Positions 2,793 through 35,164 of a stretch of DNA of 35,164 nucleotides are shown in pieces. The position numbers and the translations under genes were made by a program. The notes under the pieces are model-generated. The model ran no database searches and had not been told where the DNA came from. It saw nothing but the letters and a program-made list of their open reading frames with translations. This DNA comes from a virus: positions 1 to 35,164 of the IMG/VR virus record IMGVR_UViG_3300022847_000012; one strand, given 5' to 3'. Numbering within the stretch: the stretch's first letter is position 1; every line of letters starts with the position of its first letter.

Positions 2793-3131
2793 TTAATGGA
2801 TGCCTTCCCGATCATTGGGCTCCCAATTAGCCGCACCGTCGTAAGCGTTACCACCTACCGCAATGCCCCTCAGTTTTCCTTGATTGTCAAAAGCTATGCA
2901 GCCTGGTCGCCAGCCTCGAGGTTCCAGCAGGTCTCTGGTATAGCCACAAATCTCGGTGCCATTCACAACAATGAACCCAGCAGAGAATCCATGCTCGCGC
3001 CGCCATTTGGTTAGGCTTGTCCGTAGTTGCATATCTGGACACGTGGCGCGCACTTTTGCCTCGGCCATTTTGTTTGCGGCGTAAGCCGAGCCGTCGATGT
3101 CTACTTCTACCTCGATTGATTTGGATACCAT
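2793..3131 (-). CDS. Hypothetical protein with SKSI-VEVDID N-terminus
   Basis: This 112-residue protein has an N-terminus (MVSKSIEVEVDIDG) that resembles that of the gene immediately downstream. The remainder contains three Cys residues and the stretch GFIVVNGTEICGYTRDLLEPRGW but no motif I recognise. GAGG lies six bases before the ATG. It is the second gene of the leftward operon. Confidence 0.65.
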   Translation of the reverse strand: MVSKSIEVEVDIDGSAYAANKMAEAKVRATCPDMQLRTSLTKWRREHGFSAGFIVVNGTEICGYTRDLLEPRGWRPGCIAFDNQGKLRGIAVGGNAYDGAANWEPNDREGIH

Positions 3132-3177
3132 GTGCTGCCTCGCGTTCTGTTGTTAATGGGTAAAGGTTTGCGGCTAT

Positions 3178-3618
3178 CTATTCCAGCCAGTTCGCTCTCA
3201 GAAATTCACTGACCTCGTGGAGGTTGGTGCTAAAGCAATCCTCGTTACCGACGAGGCAGTAGTAGCCGGCCTTCTGAACCTCTATATAACCGTCAGTGTC
3301 GTCAGTCCGGTAAAAGAGCGCAGATACTGCGTCGGGATAATCTGCGGCGTCTGTGCCGGTACGCTCGGCGAGCTGGGCGATCGATATCGCTTCGCAGTTC
3401 ATTGGGTGCTTGAAGTATTCGCCGTATGCGAAGTCGTCTAGATCGTCGACCAGCTTCCAGTTGTAGTAGAGCTGCCAGTGGTTGCCTTGGTTGTAATAGA
3501 TATCGCCGTTAGCGTGGGTGCGGAAGAAATGGATCTTGCTGGGGTTATGGAGGTCGACCGTATTTTGGCGGTCGGGGAGTGGCTCGATGTAGGTCTCTAC
3601 TGCTGCTGAATTGGTCAT
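3178..3618 (-). CDS. Hypothetical protein, first gene of the leftward early operon
   Basis: The ATG at 3618 gives 146 residues. A longer frame to 3675 would run through the parS-like site and is less likely. The protein is rich in Tyr, Asp and Asn (NGDIYYNQGNHWQLYYNW) and ends in an acidic helix; no family is recognised. As first gene behind operators at 3679-3692 and 3714-3727, it should be among the earliest expressed and repressor-controlled genes. Confidence 0.7.
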   Translation of the reverse strand: MTNSAAVETYIEPLPDRQNTVDLHNPSKIHFFRTHANGDIYYNQGNHWQLYYNWKLVDDLDDFAYGEYFKHPMNCEAISIAQLAERTGTDAADYPDAVSALFYRTDDTDGYIEVQKAGYYCLVGNEDCFSTNLHEVSEFLRANWLE

Positions 3619-3753: not shown

Positions 3754-4395
3754 CTAGTCTGCGCGGTTTAGTAGTTCGATCTCGGAGCCGGACCAGGTTC
3801 GCTCGGCGATCCCGACAACGTGTCCAAGCACTTTGCACTCTGCTGCAGTAATGGTTCGATGGTCGCCATTGGTGGCGATGTAAACAATCTTTCCAAAGTC
3901 ATCGTGCCGCTCTCGGAGTGCGTGGCGATTCCGGACTTTGATCAAGGAGATCATCATCACGGCGTCGAAAGCAGGGTTATTTATATCTAGGTCCGGATCT
4001 ATGAACACGGTACTGCCTTCCGGGATCACACTTTGCAGCGAATCGTCCGGAACCAGCCAGCAGAAGGTGTTAGCGGGGTAGTTGCGCAATGAGCGAACGT
4101 ACTGATCGGCCTTGAGTGGACCTTCATTGCTTAGGTACTCGTCGATGGTCTGTGGATTTACCACAGGGTAGCCAGTCTTATCTCGATTGTTATCGATACC
4201 AGTAAGGATGTGCTCGGGTGTGACGCCTAGTTTGTGGCAAAGGGCAATCAGCTTTCTCCCGGTCGGCTCGGTGCTGTCGCTCTCCCATTGACTCACGCCG
4301 GAACCGGCCACACCAACGGCTTTGCCGAGCTGTGATTGGGATAGGTTGGCCGCTTTTCTAGCCGTTCTTATTCTGTCGCCGATTGTGTTTTTCAT
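3754..4395 (-). CDS. CI-like repressor (XRE HTH plus S24-like C-terminal domain)
   Basis: This 213-residue protein should maintain lysogeny by repressing both early promoters. An XRE helix-turn-helix spans about residues 5-65 (LSQSQLGKAVGVAGSGVSQW), and the C-terminal half matches LexA/CI peptidase folds (WLVPDDSL, then IPEGSTVFIDP). Ser119 aligns with the nucleophile. The catalytic Lys position, 42 residues on, appears to be Arg161 (ALRER where CI has TFKKL), and I see no Ala-Gly cleavage site in the linker. Self-cleavage in the SOS response is therefore doubtful. No Shine-Dalgarno precedes the ATG. It is transcribed away from the Cro-like gene, as in lambdoid switches. Confidence 0.9.
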   Translation of the reverse strand: MKNTIGDRIRTARKAANLSQSQLGKAVGVAGSGVSQWESDSTEPTGRKLIALCHKLGVTPEHILTGIDNNRDKTGYPVVNPQTIDEYLSNEGPLKADQYVRSLRNYPANTFCWLVPDDSLQSVIPEGSTVFIDPDLDINNPAFDAVMMISLIKVRNRHALRERHDDFGKIVYIATNGDHRTITAAECKVLGHVVGIAERTWSGSEIELLNRAD

Positions 4396-4477: not shown

Positions 4478-4660
4478 ATGAAGAAATCACACGCAATATC
4501 CCTCTTTAAGTCAGCGTCCGGACTAGCAACCGCTCTACATATTAGTGAGCCAGCCGTATCGCAGTGGCCGGAGGAAGCAATCCCCAAGCTGCGCGAGTAC
4601 GAGATCTTAGAACTGGTAGCCGCTCGTGATAATTCCAATGAGGAGACAGTAACGCCATGA
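4478..4660 (+). CDS. Cro-like DNA-binding protein
   Basis: This 60-residue protein is divergent from the repressor gene. The helix-turn-helix ATALHISEPAVSQWPEEAIPKLREYE has the AVSQW and IPxLRxYE pattern of small Cro proteins. It should compete with the repressor for the operators and commit the phage to the lytic path. No strong ribosome-binding site is visible before the ATG. The gene overlaps the next one by four bases (ATGA). Confidence 0.8.
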   Translation: MKKSHAISLFKSASGLATALHISEPAVSQWPEEAIPKLREYEILELVAARDNSNEETVTP

Positions 4661-5157
4661 AGCAAGCAAAACATCGTCAGATCTTACAAGGGCCTCAAAT
4701 TGAGATAGGCGATAGCAGTTACCTCACTGGTCGACAGAATGAGACGCTCTACTACATCGCGGAAGGTTGTACTGCCTACGACGCTGGAGATGCGATGGGT
4801 ATTACGGAACGAACCATCAATGCTCATGCCGATAACGCCATGGGGAAGTTGAACGCCACCAATCGTGCCAACCTGGTCAGTAAAGCATTCTCGTTAGGCA
4901 TCCTCCGAGTATCAATTGAGCAACGCGGCTTCGCTTCTATTAGGGCGCTCTGGCTCATGTTTTGTTTGACGATCTCCACATTGTTTTTCACCGCACTGCC
5001 CGACGATGCCACCGGAGATCTGGTGCGGGGTCTGCGAACGAAACCATCGAGAGCACGCAGCTCCTCGTACAAAAACGTCAAGGGCGGTCGCCGCGAGACG
5101 ATCGCCGAACAACTTGAACCTCTCGACGCGAATGAAATGTTCGGAGCGGAGGATTAA
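4657..5157 (+). CDS. LuxR/GerE-type HTH protein with a transmembrane segment
   Basis: In this 166-residue protein, residues ~24-85 match a GerE/LuxR DNA-binding domain: LTGRQNETLYYIAEG, then AGDAMGITERTINAHADNAM as the scaffold and recognition helices. A hydrophobic stretch at about 96-114 (ALWLMFCLTISTLFFTAL) looks like a membrane helix, followed by a basic then acidic tail. A membrane-anchored early regulator is inferred. It directly follows the Cro-like gene and overlaps the next ORF by one base (TAATG). Confidence 0.7.
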   Translation: MKQAKHRQILQGPQIEIGDSSYLTGRQNETLYYIAEGCTAYDAGDAMGITERTINAHADNAMGKLNATNRANLVSKAFSLGILRVSIEQRGFASIRALWLMFCLTISTLFFTALPDDATGDLVRGLRTKPSRARSSSYKNVKGGRRETIAEQLEPLDANEMFGAED

Positions 5158-5474: not shown

Positions 5475-5893
5475 GTTCGCTCCGTGTAAGCCACGCTGGA
5501 CCGTTACCCGATCGCTGGGGACTAGATCACATTGAATTGAATCCCCCTACAGTCGACACAAGAGCGTGCTCTGACCTGCCTGCTTCCTGGGAGATAAAGA
5601 AGCTGGCGCCAGTCATCAAAAGACCACCGAAAAGAACGCAGCCGCCGATGCCAGATCTAGACACGCTTGTACGCGTCATTCCGGATCAGCGCCGGACTTT
5701 TGCGAGCTGCTGTCCATGGAGAAAAATGGAAGTCGGCGACGGCTTCTACATTGCGGAAAAGGATCCGATCCAACGTAACCGTCTCGCCTGCAGCATCAAC
5801 AGCAAAGCCGTCAACGAGAAACGGAATGGCTATGGCGAATATTCAAAACACATATACGACGAGCTTCATATCGTCGTGATGAGGATCCAATGA
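5471..5893 (+). CDS. Hypothetical early protein with WRKMEVGDGF motif
   Basis: In this 140-residue protein, residues ~75-138 follow a pattern recurrent in small phage proteins: a (Y/C)PWxxMxVGDxF core, then a basic helix and a Gly-Tyr loop, ending in a hydrophobic strand (ELHIVVMRIQ). That domain is usually annotated only as a DUF, and a DNA-binding role is inferred from the basic residues. Start and stop overlap its neighbours by four bases each. Confidence 0.65.
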   Translation: MSSLRVSHAGPLPDRWGLDHIELNPPTVDTRACSDLPASWEIKKLAPVIKRPPKRTQPPMPDLDTLVRVIPDQRRTFASCCPWRKMEVGDGFYIAEKDPIQRNRLACSINSKAVNEKRNGYGEYSKHIYDELHIVVMRIQ

Positions 5894-6327
5894 TGGACCC
5901 AATGACGACAGACTTGCCAATCTACCGCCAAGAGGTTTATCGTGCCCCTGTGCTGGTAAAACCCAGTGCCGAGATTAGAGTCTCGCAAGTCAGAGTGCCA
6001 CAAGGCGCTCCAGGTGCCTTTTTTTACGCCCATAGTTTTATGGTGGGTGTGGTGGGGGAACTTCGGTGCGCCGTCTCTCTGAGCGGTAACTCTAACTCCA
6101 CTACATCCGCCACCCAATTGATTAGAGTCAATCGTGGCGGTTCTCGAACATCAGAGGATCTAAGCCATGCATTCGCCTGTGCGCGTCATACAGACGCCGA
6201 CCCATACCATCACCATCCAGCTACTTTGCACCCTCACGATCAATCTAGTGCCTTCTGGCGCCGGTTTCGTGTGGGCATCGTGCGAAGACCCAACCTATCT
6301 GCTTACGTTCAAGGAGCATGCCGATGA
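5890..6327 (+). CDS. ORF over the immunity-RNA region, Ash-like (doubtful coding)
   Basis: This 145-codon frame starts in an ATGA overlap with the previous gene. Its middle (GAFFYAHSFMVGVVGEL) resembles ORFs annotated as phage Ash-family proteins, as I recall them. Nearly all of the frame covers the structured RNA at 5970-6140, and its 3' half is overlapped in another frame by the 54-aa ORF at 6167-6331. Conservation of Ash-type ORFs may reflect the RNA rather than a protein. Confidence 0.35.
   Translation: MMDPMTTDLPIYRQEVYRAPVLVKPSAEIRVSQVRVPQGAPGAFFYAHSFMVGVVGELRCAVSLSGNSNSTTSATQLIRVNRGGSRTSEDLSHAFACARHTDADPYHHHPATLHPHDQSSAFWRRFRVGIVRRPNLSAYVQGACR
5970..5985 (+). ncRNA. Hairpin exposing a TTAGAG loop (seqA-like)
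   Basis: CGAGA-TTAGAG-TCTCG is a 5-bp stem with a six-base loop. The loop plus the next base (TTAGAGT) is complementary to ACTCTAA at 6089-6095. An identical loop is exposed at 6117-6132. Confidence 0.6.
5993..6010 (+). promoter_or_regulatory. Candidate antiterminator hairpin
   Basis: GAGTGCC-ACAA-GGCGCTC forms a 7-bp stem with one G-U pair. It shares bases 6004-6010 with the terminator hairpin that follows, so the two are mutually exclusive. Confidence 0.5.
6004..6025 (+). terminator. Intrinsic terminator/attenuator before the replication genes
   Basis: GGCGC-TCCAG-GTGCC forms a five-pair stem (one G-U), extendable by two A-U pairs, followed directly by seven T residues. It lies inside the rightward early operon, upstream of the replication initiator. 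The overlapping hairpin at 5993-6010 would prevent its formation. Confidence 0.6.
6027..6106 (+). ncRNA. Putative P4 CI/P1 C4-type antisense immunity RNA
   Basis: The segment can fold into a branched RNA. CCATA-GTTT-TATGG forms a small 5' hairpin. TGTGGTGG (6048-6055) pairs with CCACTACA (6098-6105) as the closing stem. CCG-T-CTC-TCT-GAG-CGG (6071-6086) forms an inner hairpin. The single-stranded ACTCTAA (6089-6095) lies beside it and is complementary to the loops of the hairpins at 5970-5985 and 6117-6132. This is the arrangement of the P4 immunity locus, where seqB in the CI RNA pairs with seqA and seqC. The family assignment is inference. Confidence 0.5.
6107..6140 (+). ncRNA. Long hairpin exposing a second TTAGAG loop (seqC-like)
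   Basis: CCGCCAC (6107-6113) pairs with GTGGCGG (6134-6140), and inside them ATTGA-TTAGAG-TCAAT forms a second stem. The decamer GATTAGAGTC at 6120-6129 repeats that at 5973-5982, while the stems differ and keep pairing, which argues for selected RNA structure. Confidence 0.6.
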
Positions 6328-6331
6328 GTAG
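6167..6331 (+). CDS. Small hypothetical protein (54 aa) before the replication gene
   Basis: The ATG has AGAGGA eight bases upstream, and the frame is open for 54 residues. Its stop overlaps the start of the replication gene (ATGAGTAG), which suggests coupling. The sequence is rich in Thr and hydrophobic residues (PTHTITIQLLCTLTINLVPSG). I recognise no family. It competes with the Ash-like frame, and its better ribosome-binding site makes it the likelier protein. Confidence 0.55.
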   Translation: MHSPVRVIQTPTHTITIQLLCTLTINLVPSGAGFVWASCEDPTYLLTFKEHADE

Positions 6332-7115
6332 GTTGCTGCTCGATGAGCCACCCCTTGTTCTACAGAAATCCCTAGCCGTGGTGCTGGGTCTAAATGAAGC
6401 AATTTTGATCCAACAAATCCACTACTGGACAACTATTTCTGAGCCGGATGAAGAGGGAAATGTTTGGGTAGTTAAGAGCCAAGATGACCTCGAAAAAGCA
6501 TTCCCATTTTGGTCAAAAAAGACGATATCAAGGATCACTACCGCGCTCAAAAACCGCGAAATATTGACTGCTGTTCAGGCGAAGAACTGGAATCGCACTT
6601 ACAAATATATGATCAATTACGGCCAATTAGAGGCCGATACTGTCCGCATGCATGCGGACAAGTTGTCCGCTTGGAAGGAGACAGATTGTCCGGATGCAAG
6701 TGGACAACCTGTCCGCATCAGATGCGGACAACTTGTCCCCTTGTTCAATAGAGATAAGAATACTACTGCTGCTACTGGTGACCATCCCCAAGGTGCAAGT
6801 GGACAGTATGAGGGATTTGATTACCTCAATTGGGAACCTGACGACCGACAAGTCCAATATTTGAAACGGACGACCGGCCTCGATATCGATGAAAATGTTT
6901 TGGTCAAGTTTCGGATGTACGCCATGGAGACTGAGCAGAATCCGCGCACCCTCGGAACGCGATTAACAGGCTGGCTGCAAAGCGAGAAATTGACCGACTC
7001 CAAAGCCACCCGACCGAACTCTAAAAAATCTGTCACCCAGTCAAACCAAAACGTTGTCGACGAGCTCATGTCTCGGATGGACGAAGACGGCAATTTAACC
7101 GGAGCGAAAACATGA
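6324..7115 (+). CDS. Phage replication initiator (winged-helix, DnaT-like C-terminal domain)
   Basis: The ATG at 6324 has AAGGAG seven bases upstream, better than the ATG at 6318. The 263-residue protein begins with the replisome-organiser pattern LLLDEPPLVLQKSLAVVLGLNEA, with a winged-helix region up to about residue 100 (YWT, FWSKKTISRITTALKNR). A variable linker (~106-140) is encoded by iteron-like repeats. The C-terminal domain ~170-222 (NWEPDDRQVQYLKR, FRMYAMET, RTLGTRLTGWLQSEK) resembles the DNA-binding part of DnaT-like proteins. It should bind the origin within its own gene, as lambda O does, and pass DNA to the helicase loader encoded next. Confidence 0.8.
   Translation: MSRLLLDEPPLVLQKSLAVVLGLNEAILIQQIHYWTTISEPDEEGNVWVVKSQDDLEKAFPFWSKKTISRITTALKNREILTAVQAKNWNRTYKYMINYGQLEADTVRMHADKLSAWKETDCPDASGQPVRIRCGQLVPLFNRDKNTTAATGDHPQGASGQYEGFDYLNWEPDDRQVQYLKRTTGLDIDENVLVKFRMYAMETEQNPRTLGTRLTGWLQSEKLTDSKATRPNSKKSVTQSNQNVVDELMSRMDEDGNLTGAKT
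6641..6742. repeat. Iteron cluster, probable replication origin
   Basis: Eight copies of a ~10-bp motif, TTGTCCGCAT or its complement, lie in about 100 bases: 6641, 6652 (rev), 6663, 6687, 6698 (rev), 6709, 6722 (rev) and 6733. A ninth, weaker copy is at 6797-6806. They form dyads, including the perfect 20-bp palindrome at 6641-6660, GCGGACAA-G-TTGTCCGC, and TGTCCGCAT-CAG-ATGCGGACA. The position inside the initiator gene, between its two domains, matches lambda ori within O. Confidence 0.75.
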
Positions 7116-29245: not shown

Positions 29246-31274
29246 CGAGTACAAGTTCATAATCACCGGCAAAGACGCCACTAAGCGCGCGTTTGCCTCG
29301 ATTAGACAGAACCTCGGCAGTGTTCGCGCTGGCGTCAACTCCACACAACTGAAAGTCGCTGCGCTTGCCGGGGCTGCAGGACTGGGTGCGTTAATTAACA
29401 ATTCCCTAAAGGGCGGTGACGCGCTGGGCAAGTTTGCCGATCGCGTGGGCGCAACCACCGAAGGTCTAGCCGGCCTGCAGTTGATTACTGAATTAAATGG
29501 CGAGTCGTCCGAGTCGCTATCCAAATCCCTCGAGAAGATGAACCGTGGCGTCGGTGAGGCGCAGCGTGGAATCGGTACTGCTCTCCCAGCATTCGAGCAA
29601 CTTGGCCTCAGCGTCGACGAACTCGCCAAAATGCCAGCAGACGAGCGATTCATCAAGATCGGTGACGCCATCGGCAGACTAGACGACGAAACGCTCCAAG
29701 CGTCCCTATCAGCTGACATCTTCGGCCGTTCCGGTGTTCGGTTAATCAACACCTTCGAGCAGGGTGAAGAAGCAATGCGTGGTGCTACCCAGCAGGCTAT
29801 CGACCTGGGTATAGCCATGAGCCGAACTGATGCTGCAAAGATTGAAGCCGCCAACGATGCCATGCTGCTCGCCAGCAAGCGCGTCGAGGGTATCGGCAAC
29901 CAAGTCACTGTCGCTGTCGCGCCTATCATTGCTGAATTGGCTGATCAGTTCACTGCAGCCGGATTCTCGGCTGACGAAATGACGGACATCATCAACCGTG
30001 GTCTCGATATAAGTACCGGTGTGGTTGGCACCTTTGCGGACGGCATACATGGCATCAATGTACTGTTCAAGCTCGGCGAAGTAGCTGGACGTGGATTAGG
30101 TACCGCTGTGGTCGGTAGTCTTAACTTCGCGCAGAACAAAGCCTTCGAATTCTATAACTCCATCAAGAGTTTCATCCTCGAGCCGCTGCAGGACGTCCTA
30201 GAACTGGCCGCACCTTTCTCCGATCGCGCAGCTAATGCGCTGCAAAGCGTCAATGCTGCGCTGGTGGACATAAAGCCACCGGCTGGACTTGGCGAAATGT
30301 TCGATGAGATGAATGCTGGCTTTCAACAGGCCAAGCAAGAATTAAACGACCTGGTGCTGGAACAGATACCGAGCCAGATCATCGGGGAGAAGCTGCAAGC
30401 GGTTCTCGACGGAGCCCAGGCTAAAGCAGAAGAGATTGCCGCCAAGGCACAACTCCGACTCGATAAACCTGATCTTGGTGAAGATACTGGCGGCATCGAT
30501 GTTACCGAGCAAGAGCGCACCCAGGCGAAGTTGGACCGTCTGAATGAAAACTACGCCACCGAGCTCGAGCTGCTTCGCGGAAAGCTACTAACTGAGCAGA
30601 CTATCCTGGCCGAATCCCATCAGCAGAACCTGCTTACCGAAGACCGTTTTAATGCGCTGAATCTACGCGCCGCCAAAAAATACGAACTGGCCAAGACTAA
30701 CCTTGAAGAGAAGAGCGCTGCCGATCGTCGCAGTAAGCTGTTTGGCAGTCTGACAACGATCTCTGGAGCTTTCGGCGGTCAAAGCAAGAAGATGTTCAAG
30801 CTGCAGAAGAACCTGGCACTTGCTGAGGCTGCCGTGTCGCTCCCATCTGCAGTGTTGAGTTCGTACAAAAATGCCGGCGGCTTTCCGTTGGGCATTCCTG
30901 CGGCCGCGGCTATGGCGGCAACTGGTCTCGCACAGATCGCACAGATTAAAAGCTCATCCCTCGGATCTGGTGGCGGTGGTTCGATATCGGTCGGTGGCAG
31001 CGGCGCTGTGGGCGGTAATGTTGGCACCGCGGCGGGTGTTGTGGCTGCAGGGACGTCTCTCGTCGACAGTCTTTCAGGCTTTCAATCCGACAGTGGTCAA
31101 AAACAGGAATCTAAACCAGATATCCATTTTCACTTCCCTGACGGCTTGGTGGTCGGATCCGATGCCGAGCGTAACCTGGCAGACATGCGTCGGCTCATTG
31201 TGGAAGAAGACTTTCAGCTGATACCTCCAGGCTCTCGTAACGGCATCGATCTGGCTGCAGGCGGAGTTGCCTAA
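29238..31274 (+). CDS. Tape measure protein
   Basis: This 678-residue protein begins YKFIITGKDATKRAFASIRQNL, the usual start of siphophage tape measures, and the long helical body includes LTITELNGESSESLSKSL-like segments. A Gly-rich hydrophobic stretch (GSGGGGSISVGGSGAVGG) comes before the C-terminus. At about 1.5 angstrom per residue it predicts a tail near 100 nm. It is short compared with lambda gpH (853 aa). It overlaps the T frame and the next gene by one to eight bases. Confidence 0.9.
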   Translation: MADEYKFIITGKDATKRAFASIRQNLGSVRAGVNSTQLKVAALAGAAGLGALINNSLKGGDALGKFADRVGATTEGLAGLQLITELNGESSESLSKSLEKMNRGVGEAQRGIGTALPAFEQLGLSVDELAKMPADERFIKIGDAIGRLDDETLQASLSADIFGRSGVRLINTFEQGEEAMRGATQQAIDLGIAMSRTDAAKIEAANDAMLLASKRVEGIGNQVTVAVAPIIAELADQFTAAGFSADEMTDIINRGLDISTGVVGTFADGIHGINVLFKLGEVAGRGLGTAVVGSLNFAQNKAFEFYNSIKSFILEPLQDVLELAAPFSDRAANALQSVNAALVDIKPPAGLGEMFDEMNAGFQQAKQELNDLVLEQIPSQIIGEKLQAVLDGAQAKAEEIAAKAQLRLDKPDLGEDTGGIDVTEQERTQAKLDRLNENYATELELLRGKLLTEQTILAESHQQNLLTEDRFNALNLRAAKKYELAKTNLEEKSAADRRSKLFGSLTTISGAFGGQSKKMFKLQKNLALAEAAVSLPSAVLSSYKNAGGFPLGIPAAAAMAATGLAQIAQIKSSSLGSGGGGSISVGGSGAVGGNVGTAAGVVAAGTSLVDSLSGFQSDSGQKQESKPDIHFHFPDGLVVGSDAERNLADMRRLIVEEDFQLIPPGSRNGIDLAAGGVA

Positions 31275-31663: not shown

Positions 31664-34600
31664 GTGAGACAGAATAGCGACAACTACAACAACTATGCCC
31701 TGAAGTCGGAGCGAGAGCTCCGCCTGGTTGTATCGATCGAGTTTAGTGGGACCACGTACTACTTCACATCGCACGACGATATCGATACACCTGAAGCTTC
31801 AACGATTCACGAGTCGTTGAAGAACGTGAACGCCAAGACGCAGCGGTATCTACCTGAACAAGCACGCTCGGAGATCGGCCGGTTAAAGTTTAGCCTGCTC
31901 GATGTGGGTGAGGCTGTCTCAGATCTGTTGAACGACGAGCAATACAACAATGACGAGGGACCACTGCACAGAAAAGTCGTTCTATATCGTGGTTTCTACA
32001 ATCTGGCCTGGTCCGATTACCGGGTAGAGATGACTCAGCTGATCGATTCGAAAATCAGTTTCGAGAAAAACGTCTATGACTTCTCCTGTTCTGACAAGCA
32101 AAGCCAGCTTAAGAAAAATATATTTAACTTCCCCTCTACGCGCCTGAGTGCCGGTGTAACGGCCGAAGCAACAACCTTAAGCGTCTACACCACGGAAGGC
32201 TTTGACGTCGTGCCCCAGGGGACTAGCTATTCTTATCTGCCGTCCACCAGCGTCATCATGTTGCGTATCAAGTACCAGGACAACTGGGAGATCTGCAGCG
32301 CCACCGGGAAAACAGCCACAACATTTACTGGTGTGGTGCGGGGATTGTTCGGAACCGTCGCCCGGGCTCACCAACTGCCAGAGGACGCGAATTCGGATAA
32401 CGGTGTCGAGGTCGAGTACTACCCTTACCTCGAGTTGCCTGTAGCGAAATTAGTCTATGCCCTGCTAACAGGTGTTCTTCTTAATCAGGGTGGTGCTGAG
32501 TTACCCAGTGCTTACCACCTGGCCATTCCAGAAGCGGATATCATTTCGGCGAGCTTTGAAAGCTATCCAGACTGGTATTTGACGACAGACGATACTCGAG
32601 GGCTCATTCTCGCATTCGAGGGTGGCGCAATGTCCGAGGGCGATGGCAAGGCATTCATCGAGAAAGAGATCCTATCGCTAATCAATGCGTTTCTCCTGGT
32701 AGAGCCCGATGGCAGATTATCGCTGCGGCGCAAGGTTCCGGTTCTATCCAGCTCTGATTATGTTGGTGTGCTGAATGAAAACTTGATATCTAGCGTCAAT
32801 GCCCTCGAGCATGATCTCGATGCTGTTTCGTCAAGGTTTCGAATCCGGTGGGGATACCGGGAGTTCGGGCCCAACAACAAAGGATTTTATCGCGAGCGTG
32901 TGATTACCGACACCATCGCCGCGGCCCGGTTTCCAGATGCGAAAACGAAGGAGCTCGCCTTCAAAGGTCTGACGCCAGCCAGGCACACAACTACCATCCT
33001 GCGAAACATATTCGAGAGCCAGCGAGATGCAGTAGCGTCTCCGCCATTACACCTGTCTGGTGTTCGGCTGATGCCTTCCATTGGATTCGATGTTGAACTT
33101 GCAGATGTGTTTCGAGTTGATCTCTCGCACGTTCGGGATTACCAATCATTAGTCGACGTCAGCAGTCTGGACCGCCCATTCGAAGTCCAACGAATCACGA
33201 TTGATCAAATCAAGGACTCCGTGATCGTCGACTTTGTAGGATCGGGGAATAGCGCGACGCAGATCGGTGATGATGATAGTGGCGATTCCGTTATACCTGA
33301 CGGCGCGTACACCGACACCGGGACCAATCTCACTTCTGTGCTCTCAATCGATGGCAGCGGATTCACGACGGCAGACGGCACTCTCACCGGGGGCACCACG
33401 ACCAGGACGCGCTACTACTACGACGGTGACCTGACAATCAGTGCCGGCGACACAATAGACTTCACCGGCAACATCGAGATCTGGGTTAAAGGCCATTTTT
33501 CTATTCTCGGCAAGCTTGATGGGGCCGGAGGTGGCTACACCTTTTCGGAAGCTGGATATATTGGAACCACGATGGCCCAGGGCCTTGCATACGCAGTGAC
33601 TGGCTTTTTTGGGAACATCATATCGTTCAGCAACGGGCAAACTCTGTTCCCCCAGGTCACAGCGATACCAGCACTAATGATCGTTAATGATGCCGGTGTC
33701 CTGAGCGGGTACCCAGACGACATGCGCGGTTCCGGTGGACCGAGTGGCGGCATATCAACTGCCGGAGATGACTCACCAGTTGTTGGTGGAGTCGGCGGTC
33801 TTGGTGGCGGATCCGTTGTGATCGTATCCCGGGGCAGCAGCTTCGGTGTGGATGGCGAGATCGACGTCTCCGGCACGGATGGCAACCTGGGAAGTACAGG
33901 CGATTATGTTGTCGGTGGTGCTGGAGGCGGTGGATCCGCCGGCAGTGTTCTGATTTTAATTGATGGCTCCGGGAACTCAGTGCCGATAGCGAACGGCAAG
34001 ATAACTGCATTCCGTGGAGCAAGCCCCGAGCAGGCTAACGTCCCTGTCCGTGGTGTAGATACTAAAGCACCTAAAGAATCCCCGACAACTAGATGGGGTG
34101 GATGGCCTGGGCTTCCATCTGTCAGCCAGTACGATTCAAACGTGCGGATCCAGTACCTGCCGGTATCACGGATACCCTACGAGAACGATCAAGCCAGCCT
34201 CGAGCCACCCAGCGGGGTAACAGTAAGTCCAATTCCAGGCGGCAATGATATCGATTGGGATAATCCTATAAACCCAGGCAGCTGGGATCTGATTGAGATA
34301 CATGCCTCAACAACGAACGACGTTGCTACCGCCAGCAAGACATTCGAAGGTCGTAATAGCCGGGCCAATCATCTTACTGGCAATGTAACACCACAGTTTT
34401 ACTGGTTGAGATCGAGGCAGGGAACGCGGTTCTCGGACTTCATTCCGAACACTACGACAACCACCTACACCGGCACTCCCGAGATCGATGCGAATGTCGC
34501 TGCTACCAGATCGAATTGGAGCGGTATTGTTGATGACGATTCCAACAAGCCAGACAACAACGCGACCGTCGGTGCAATATGGGGAACTAATGTCACGTCC

Positions 34601-35164
34601 CAGCCTGCTGATGCCGCGATACTCAACTCGTTCTTATTGATAGGTTCCGATGGTACGTTATCTGGCGGCGGCGGTGGTTCGGTAACCATTGTGGGGCTGG
34701 GTTACAACGGTTCGCTGGATGCGACAGACAACACGATCACTCAGTCCGCAAGTAATCCCAGCGGGGGTATCAATGGGAGCTTGCATTACAATACTGCTAC
34801 CAAATCGTGGTGGTCTAAGATCGCTGGTACCTGGATTAAAGTAGGCGATGAGACGGCGGCTAATGTCGCTGCTTCGATTGCCGGGCAGGGTGGCCTGGCG
34901 ACTGTTAACAGTGCTGATTGGTCCAGCCAGGTATCCGGAACCGGAAAGCCGGCCGACAATGCGACAGTTGGTGCTGTATGGGGAGTTAATGTCACGTCCC
35001 AGCCTGCTGATGCCGCGATACTCAACTCGTTCTTATCGATAGGTTCCGATGGTACGTTATCTGGCGGCGGCGGTGGTTCGGTAACCATTGTGGGGCTGGG
35101 TTACAACGGTTCGCTGGATGCGACAGACAACACGATCACTCAGTCCGCAAGTAATCCCAGCGGG
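31664..35164 (+). CDS. Large tail tip/host-specificity protein (5' part, open at window end)
   Basis: A GTG at 31664 opens a frame of exactly 1167 codons to the last base with no stop; it resumes at base 2. Residues ~1-530 are a baseplate-hub-like region (KSERELRLVVSIEFSGTTYY, LVEPDGRLSLRRKVPVL). Residues ~619-762 are a Gly-rich region (GGAGGGG-type, polyglycine-sandwich-like) typical of receptor-binding adhesins. From ~960 there are 133-residue repeats with NATVGAxWGxNVTSQPAD and AGTWIKVGDETAANVA. The likely function is receptor recognition and DNA-injection tip, in place of lambda J. With the part at 2-634 the protein would be roughly 1,395 residues or more. Confidence 0.85.
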   Translation, partial: MRQNSDNYNNYALKSERELRLVVSIEFSGTTYYFTSHDDIDTPEASTIHESLKNVNAKTQRYLPEQARSEIGRLKFSLLDVGEAVSDLLNDEQYNNDEGPLHRKVVLYRGFYNLAWSDYRVEMTQLIDSKISFEKNVYDFSCSDKQSQLKKNIFNFPSTRLSAGVTAEATTLSVYTTEGFDVVPQGTSYSYLPSTSVIMLRIKYQDNWEICSATGKTATTFTGVVRGLFGTVARAHQLPEDANSDNGVEVEYYPYLELPVAKLVYALLTGVLLNQGGAELPSAYHLAIPEADIISASFESYPDWYLTTDDTRGLILAFEGGAMSEGDGKAFIEKEILSLINAFLLVEPDGRLSLRRKVPVLSSSDYVGVLNENLISSVNALEHDLDAVSSRFRIRWGYREFGPNNKGFYRERVITDTIAAARFPDAKTKELAFKGLTPARHTTTILRNIFESQRDAVASPPLHLSGVRLMPSIGFDVELADVFRVDLSHVRDYQSLVDVSSLDRPFEVQRITIDQIKDSVIVDFVGSGNSATQIGDDDSGDSVIPDGAYTDTGTNLTSVLSIDGSGFTTADGTLTGGTTTRTRYYYDGDLTISAGDTIDFTGNIEIWVKGHFSILGKLDGAGGGYTFSEAGYIGTTMAQGLAYAVTGFFGNIISFSNGQTLFPQVTAIPALMIVNDAGVLSGYPDDMRGSGGPSGGISTAGDDSPVVGGVGGLGGGSVVIVSRGSSFGVDGEIDVSGTDGNLGSTGDYVVGGAGGGGSAGSVLILIDGSGNSVPIANGKITAFRGASPEQANVPVRGVDTKAPKESPTTRWGGWPGLPSVSQYDSNVRIQYLPVSRIPYENDQASLEPPSGVTVSPIPGGNDIDWDNPINPGSWDLIEIHASTTNDVATASKTFEGRNSRANHLTGNVTPQFYWLRSRQGTRFSDFIPNTTTTTYTGTPEIDANVAATRSNWSGIVDDDSNKPDNNATVGAIWGTNVTSQPADAAILNSFLLIGSDGTLSGGGGGSVTIVGLGYNGSLDATDNTITQSASNPSGGINGSLHYNTATKSWWSKIAGTWIKVGDETAANVAASIAGQGGLATVNSADWSSQVSGTGKPADNATVGAVWGVNVTSQPADAAILNSFLSIGSDGTLSGGGGGSVTIVGLGYNGSLDATDNTITQSASNPSG
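34591..35164 (+). repeat. 399-bp tandem repeat in the tail protein gene
   Basis: Bases 34591-34765 recur at 34990-35164 with one difference (34638 T, 35037 C), giving a period of 399 bases (133 codons). Bases 34823-34930 recur at 5-112, the start of the next unit. The window ends exactly 127 identical bases after the mismatch. Confidence 0.95.

Follow-up and report, generated by a model that had tools for sequence, protein, structure and literature searches.

The C4/CI antisense-RNA switch is the device by which phages P1 and P4 stay dormant. The present locus raises the question of whether an uncultured siphophage carries such a switch directly in front of its replication gene, and at which steps of gene expression it would act. 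We use the window for the whole stretch of DNA analysed, i.e., the 35,164 nucleotides of IMG/VR record IMGVR_UViG_3300022847_000012. An earlier note, made from these letters alone, had placed a P4 CI- or P1 C4-like antisense immunity RNA at positions 5970-6140.

Identity and parts of the locus

Scanning the 35-kb window by cmscan with curated cut-offs, we obtained matches to two Rfam families, both at this locus. The C4 model (RF01695) matched positions 6036-6117 over its full length (1-87) with 56.7 bits vs. a gathering score of 45, and the isrK model (RF01394) matched positions 5950-6024, likewise over its full length (1-77), with 51.3 bits, barely above its gathering score of 50. No match of the c4-a1b1 model (RF03163) to the window was listed up to an E value of 5, despite the presence of both an a1 and a b1 site. 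The positive controls in the same scan yielded C4 in P1, P4 and Gifsy-1, isrK in P4 and Gifsy-1, and c4-a1b1 in P1 and Gifsy-1; the C4 and c4-a1b1 motifs are both listed by Weinberg et al. (PMC2864571). Because a single C4 model matches P1 C4, P4 and Gifsy-1, the terms "P1 C4-like" and "P4 CI-like" of the earlier note denote one family, to which the window element belongs. The parts of the locus are as follows.

5914-5943, + strand: predicted sigma-70 promoter TTGCCA-N18-TATCGT (9/12 consensus match)
5950-6024, + strand: isrK/seqA-type leader RNA (RF01394)
5975-5981, + strand: a1 target site TTAGAGT, in the loop of hairpin 5970-5985, complementary to a'
5990-5995, + strand: b1 target site TCAGAG, sharing bases with the 5' arm of the antiterminator
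5993-6010, + strand: antiterminator hairpin GAGTGCC-ACAA-GGCGCTC (arms 5993-5999 with 6004-6010; −12.0 kcal/mol)
6002-6025, + strand: intrinsic terminator AAGGCGCT-CCA-GGTGCCTT plus T run (arms 6002-6009 with 6013-6020; −9.9 kcal/mol)
6036-6117, + strand: C4 antisense RNA (RF01695; covariance-model match), with a 17-bp closing stem
6077-6082, + strand: b' (CTCTGA), in the loop of C4 hairpin 2, complementary to b1 and b2
6089-6095, + strand: a' (ACTCTAA), the C4 segment preceding the closing stem, complementary to a1 and a2
6122-6128, + strand: a2 target site TTAGAGT, in the loop of hairpin 6107-6140
6151-6156, + strand: b2 target site TCAGAG, overlapping the Shine-Dalgarno sequence AGAGGA (6153-6158)
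6167-6331, + strand: 54-codon leader ORF in the icd/orf45 position, with coding-like GC by codon position
6324-7115, + strand: DnaD-like helicase loader/replication initiation protein (phrog_6493, E 6e-24; alternative start at 6318)

All features named in the earlier note were recovered at the positions it gave, as part of a larger element. The window contains exactly two copies of the decamer GATTAGAGTC (5973-5982 and 6120-6129), exposed on two different stems, of which the hairpin at 5970-5985 (−5.3 kcal/mol, z −2.15) is moderately more stable than its shuffles and that at 6107-6140 reaches −16.2 kcal/mol with a z of about −5.0. The complementary ACTCTAA lies at 6089-6095, as stated before, and the proposed closing stem of 6048-6055 with 6098-6105 is contained in a longer one of 17 bp (6041-6057 with 6096-6112). 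The C4 body folds with −38.7 kcal/mol (z −5.05), and none of 200 shuffled sequences was as stable. Because the arm at 6107-6113 overlaps the 3' arm of the closing stem, the downstream hairpin and the closing stem are mutually exclusive. What the note had missed were b', b1 and b2, the promoter, the 54-codon ORF and the identity of the upstream half as isrK. The order a1b1-C4-a2b2-DnaD-like gene agrees with the seqA-seqB-seqC logic in front of a replication gene that it had proposed.

The start codon of the 54-codon ORF (ATG at 6167) lies 10 nt past the end of b2, and its end overlaps the start of the replication gene by 8 nt (6331 vs. 6324). No family match was obtained for this ORF, and the replication protein additionally gave a weak match to DnaT in Pfam. 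The same order of promoter, a1, b1, c4, a2, b2, icd and ant is found in the immI region of P1, where a1 (48255-48261), b1 (48269-48276), c4 (48343-48419), a2 (48423-48429), b2 (48452-48459) and the icd start (48470) are annotated and ant1 overlaps icd by 4 nt. P1 and the window share the distances from a2 to b2 (29 nt) and from b2 to the ATG (10 nt) as well as the overlap of the leader ORF with the next gene. In contrast to P1, the window matches isrK instead of c4-a1b1, and the gene controlled by C4 in P1 and P7 (c4-icd-ant) is an antirepressor, whereas here it is a replication initiator; no antirepressor was recognised downstream among the ORFs scanned, the next genes being DnaD-like and unknown.

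An unbroken reading frame of 145 codons (5890-6327), which begins at the stop of the previous gene, spans the leader and the C4 RNA, and the region might be read as simply coding. We give this reading almost no credence: the frame runs across both the terminator and C4, has no Pfam or PHROG match, and differs from the neighbouring genes in GC by codon position. On the missing homology and the codon-position composition, it was rejected as a gene.

Pairing and covariation across the family

The a'/b' segments pair with a1b1 and with a2b2 over 7+6 nt on either side. As these matches are short, the window alone lends them only modest significance: a two-part match as good was present in 54 of 2000 shuffled windows for the upstream and in 19 of 2000 for the downstream sites. 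Despite these modest statistics, the Rfam matches together with the covariation across loci are decisive for the element. Because a blastn search of the region against phage records gave no match, relatives were sought by sequence pattern, covariance model and protein. Scans of viral contigs with two neighbouring proteins returned only IMGVR_UViG_3300022842_000078 (L012, L172), which matches the window at 100% identity along 12,564 bases; since the sole near relative is identical, it is apparently the same virus assembled twice and adds no independent variation. A covariance model built from 21 elements gave 66 matches in the fetched loci. The pattern scan of genome contigs produced many unrelated chance matches, so that we kept a match only if the covariance model confirmed it.

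In the resulting alignment, 98.4% of the cells of the C4 stem were paired, and 20 of the 24 pairs contained changes on both sides. Among 42 non-redundant elements, the sites paired with their own partners over a mean of 14.4 and 13.6 nt, vs. 9.7 and 9.0 nt with those of other elements, and the summed own-partner pairing was equalled in none of 20,000 permutations, upstream as well as downstream. The a and b sequences drift together, reading TTAGAGT/TCAGAG in the window, TTGACAG/GTTAGTG in P1, GTGAGAA/TTCACAGG in P4 and TTGACCT/CCACGAG in a viral contig. The earlier note had made its reading depend on covariation in homologues, and it survived this comparison. At the level of sequence, the predicted parts, their pairings, the family-wide covariation and the thermodynamic switch described below can be taken as shown, and the window element genuinely belongs to the C4/CI family, its target being a replication initiator.

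The position of the promoter is also shared. In the window, a gap of 31 nt separates the end of its −10 box from a1, and the gap is the same in P1 (where the promoter is annotated), P4, Gifsy-1 and Hafnia phage yong2 and in most of 35 elements. The promoter itself is weak, and chance alone should yield one or two sites of this quality in the scanned region. This weakness, a C4 score (56.7 bits) among the lower ones of the family set and a relative whose complete identity allows no test of selection would fit a degenerate, inherited C4 remnant without function in this phage. We regard such decay as very improbable, as the locus preserves, all together, the six a/b elements, both pairs of mutually exclusive hairpins, the overlap with the Shine-Dalgarno sequence and the register of the promoter.

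The leader and two predicted points of control

As the earlier note had proposed, the terminator ending at 6025 (−9.9 kcal/mol) faces an antiterminator at 5993-6010 (−12.0 kcal/mol), and folding shows the two to be mutually exclusive. By partition-function folding, the probability of the terminator in the window leader was 0.001 in the free state and 0.836 when b1 was held unpaired, which served as a stand-in for C4-bound b1; the terminator forms on blocking b1 because b1 overlaps the antiterminator arm. Blocking a1 alone left the terminator probability of the window leader unchanged. The trigger proposed earlier is incomplete in that b'·b1 pairing explains termination better than the pairing of TTAGAG with ACTCTAA alone.

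Among the 23 elements with a terminator, blocking b1 raised the mean terminator probability from 0.51 to 0.80, vs. 0.50 with equal stretches blocked elsewhere (Wilcoxon, 7e-5 vs. the free leader and 6e-5 vs. the block elsewhere). The increase exceeded 0.1 in 11 of the 23, while most of the others already form the terminator; an apparent decrease in one element (L010) is an artefact of a wrong, automatically chosen terminator. P4 and Gifsy-1 showed no effect of the b1 block, their terminators folding without it, and some elements have no recognisable terminator. Antiterminators with other stem sequences occur in the P1, Xanthomonas and viral-contig elements, and in many elements the antiterminator shares bases with b1. 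The antiterminator arms pair better with their own than with foreign partners, only 13 of 20,000 permutations being as good. As this test was anchored on the loop and some elements were mis-anchored (0-1 pairs), it is conservative.

We therefore consider it probable that the locus is a full C4/CI antisense-RNA cassette, which controls the replication operon of the phage by both termination and a translation block. Transcription from the promoter at 5914-5943 would first yield a short leader with a1 and b1. Without C4 RNA, the antiterminator would fold, polymerase would pass 6025 and go on to transcribe C4, the 54-codon ORF and the replication gene, and the C4 RNA would be excised from this read-through transcript. 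With C4 RNA already in the cell, as in a lysogen or at a late stage of infection, a' and b' would bind a1 and b1, and the b'·b1 duplex would remove part of the antiterminator 5' arm, allowing the terminator to form and transcription to stop ahead of C4 and the replication gene. On transcripts that escape, a' and b' would bind a2 and b2 and cover the Shine-Dalgarno sequence of the 54-codon ORF, which would also silence the replication gene coupled to it. This second action, a translation block predicted from the overlap of b2 with the ribosome site, was absent from the earlier note. The model supposes that C4 RNA is made, processed and active in trans, as its family membership suggests; that termination at 6025 responds to it, as the folding model predicts; and that translation of the replication gene is coupled to that of the 54-codon ORF. 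By analogy with known C4 systems, the outcome would be superinfection immunity or control of replication.

A rival scheme would have C4 act on translation only, as described for P1, with transcription dropping secondarily through Rho and the terminator at 6025 merely making a stable leader RNA. In its a2/b2 spacing and its Shine-Dalgarno overlap the window agrees exactly with P1, several elements form the terminator whatever the state of b1, and some have no recognisable one. The free window leader, however, avoids the terminator (probability 0.001) and regains it on b1 occupancy (0.836), and the antiterminator arms of the family favour their own partners, so that we consider a purely translational action possible but doubtful.

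The leader RNA could also work in the opposite sense, as proposed for Gifsy-1, by opening the ribosome site of the leader ORF in trans as an induction switch and not as an immunity device. The isrK match above its cut-off and a layout in common with Gifsy-1 isrK-orf45-anrP, in which translation of orf45 drives the next gene (PMC4825925), speak for such an activator. The identical pairing equally predicts titration of C4 by the leader RNA, however, and because no antirepressor was recognised in the window, the Gifsy-1 readout via anrP and then antQ is not available here. This makes an isrK-like activator unlikely in this phage. The window and Gifsy-1 share isrK, C4 and a leader ORF that extends into the next gene, but in Gifsy-1 the controlled gene is an antirepressor, and the published model puts its emphasis on a trans action of IsrK. 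The C4 RNA of Gifsy-1, STnc1160, was observed as a processed RNA of ~80 nt on northern blots (PMC4825925). Its constitutive production failed to relieve the growth arrest mediated by IsrK (PMC4825925), which counts against our preferred account of a C4 cassette with two control points.

To the wider proposal that the family leader is an antisense-RNA attenuator working through b1 and a conserved antiterminator, with the same RNA blocking b2 as a double lock that in this phage acts on lytic replication directly, instead of on an antirepressor, beside the protein repressor, we give even chances. We found no earlier description of a b1-linked antiterminator in a search that left the P4 termination literature aside, and the mechanism may be partly known.

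Targets of the cassette and phage context

In P4, the CI RNA pairs with seqA and seqC and terminates transcription of the replication genes (Hershko-Shalev et al., PMC4825925), and its seqA has been named a structural homologue of IsrK (PMC4825925). Both the C4 and isrK models match P4, and there as in the window, where the order is a1b1-C4-a2b2-replication gene, the RNA is located between seqA/seqC-type sites upstream of replication genes. The P4 primase (alpha) is several genes downstream, whereas the replication gene of the window directly follows the leader ORF, and the window phage differs further in having a CI-like protein repressor and virion genes of its own. Closer in layout is the cultured Hafnia phage yong2 (MZ516527), with isrK (80.9 bits), C4 (77.3 bits), a 77-codon ORF that has b2 at the ribosome site and overlaps a DnaD-like gene by 4 nt, and CI/CII genes upstream; its replication protein is 34% identical, and its a/b sequences differ. 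The biology of the window element is thus of a known kind, with replication as the target already in P4 and yong2, and its novelty is modest. The annotated 'Ash family protein' of yong2 (30304-30987; positions 2815-3498 of locus L175) is over-long and crosses isrK and C4; its true start is probably at L175 position 3265, and other 'ash family' annotations may be affected by the same start error.

The genes that follow other C4 elements of the set code for BRO-N antirepressors (L003, L011), Toprim-domain, primase-type proteins (L005, L008) or a DUF3987 protein (L039), or for alpha in P4. Related replication proteins are encoded without C4 in seven viral contigs and in 11 of 12 cultured phages examined, yong2 being the exception. 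Because most related replication genes have no C4, the pairing of C4 with a DnaD-like gene is not general. Judged by gene neighbourhoods, the replication-targeting arrangement is recurrent and not tied to the DnaD-like gene family.

By blast, 2822 of the 5426 complete E. coli genomes contained matches to the cassette region of yong2, and the top-scoring ones carry the annotation of Rha family regulators. Some Pseudomonas and Stenotrophomonas genomes (L139-L141; G024, G030, G035, G036) contain 17 to 38 C4 model matches each, far exceeding the count suggested by their number of prophages, and several of these many-copy matches keep the a/b pairing to a downstream start codon. The C4 family may have spread beyond phage immunity.

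The protein repressor that the earlier note had placed alongside the RNA, which would form the other immunity layer, is present upstream of the cassette; together with a P22 Cro-like gene it adjoins the early rightward genes.

3754-4395, − strand: CI-like protein repressor (HTH_3; peptidase S24 score slightly below the cut-off)
4478-4660: P22 Cro-like gene

A LuxR/GerE-type regulator (4657-5157, + strand) directly follows the P22 Cro-like gene, a position usually taken by cII in lambdoid phages. A ParB-like gene is located at 1773-2435 (− strand), and the ORFs scanned in the window included no recognisable integrase, although the record may be incomplete. P1 and P4 are C4 carriers with plasmid prophages, and the ParB-like gene, the C4 cassette and the lack of a recognised integrase make a plasmid prophage a possibility. 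The protein at the right end of the window breaks off within a repeated unit and is resumed at the left end (IAGTWIKVGDETAANVAAS...; 1-634 and 31664-35164), which gives the record the look of a circularly permuted genome that was cut within a repetitive tail gene.

One RNA family model covers P1 C4, P4 CI and Gifsy-1 isrK/STnc1160, and its leader-ORF module serves different genes, namely antirepressors, primases and DnaD-like replication initiators, which also explains why C4 loci can be mis-annotated as 'Ash family' proteins or over-long ORFs. For the uncultured siphophage, the cassette likely adds an RNA-based layer of immunity or replication control. It gives a concrete, testable account in which one small RNA could govern termination as well as translation, and the proposed b1-linked attenuator is its most interesting and most testable addition.
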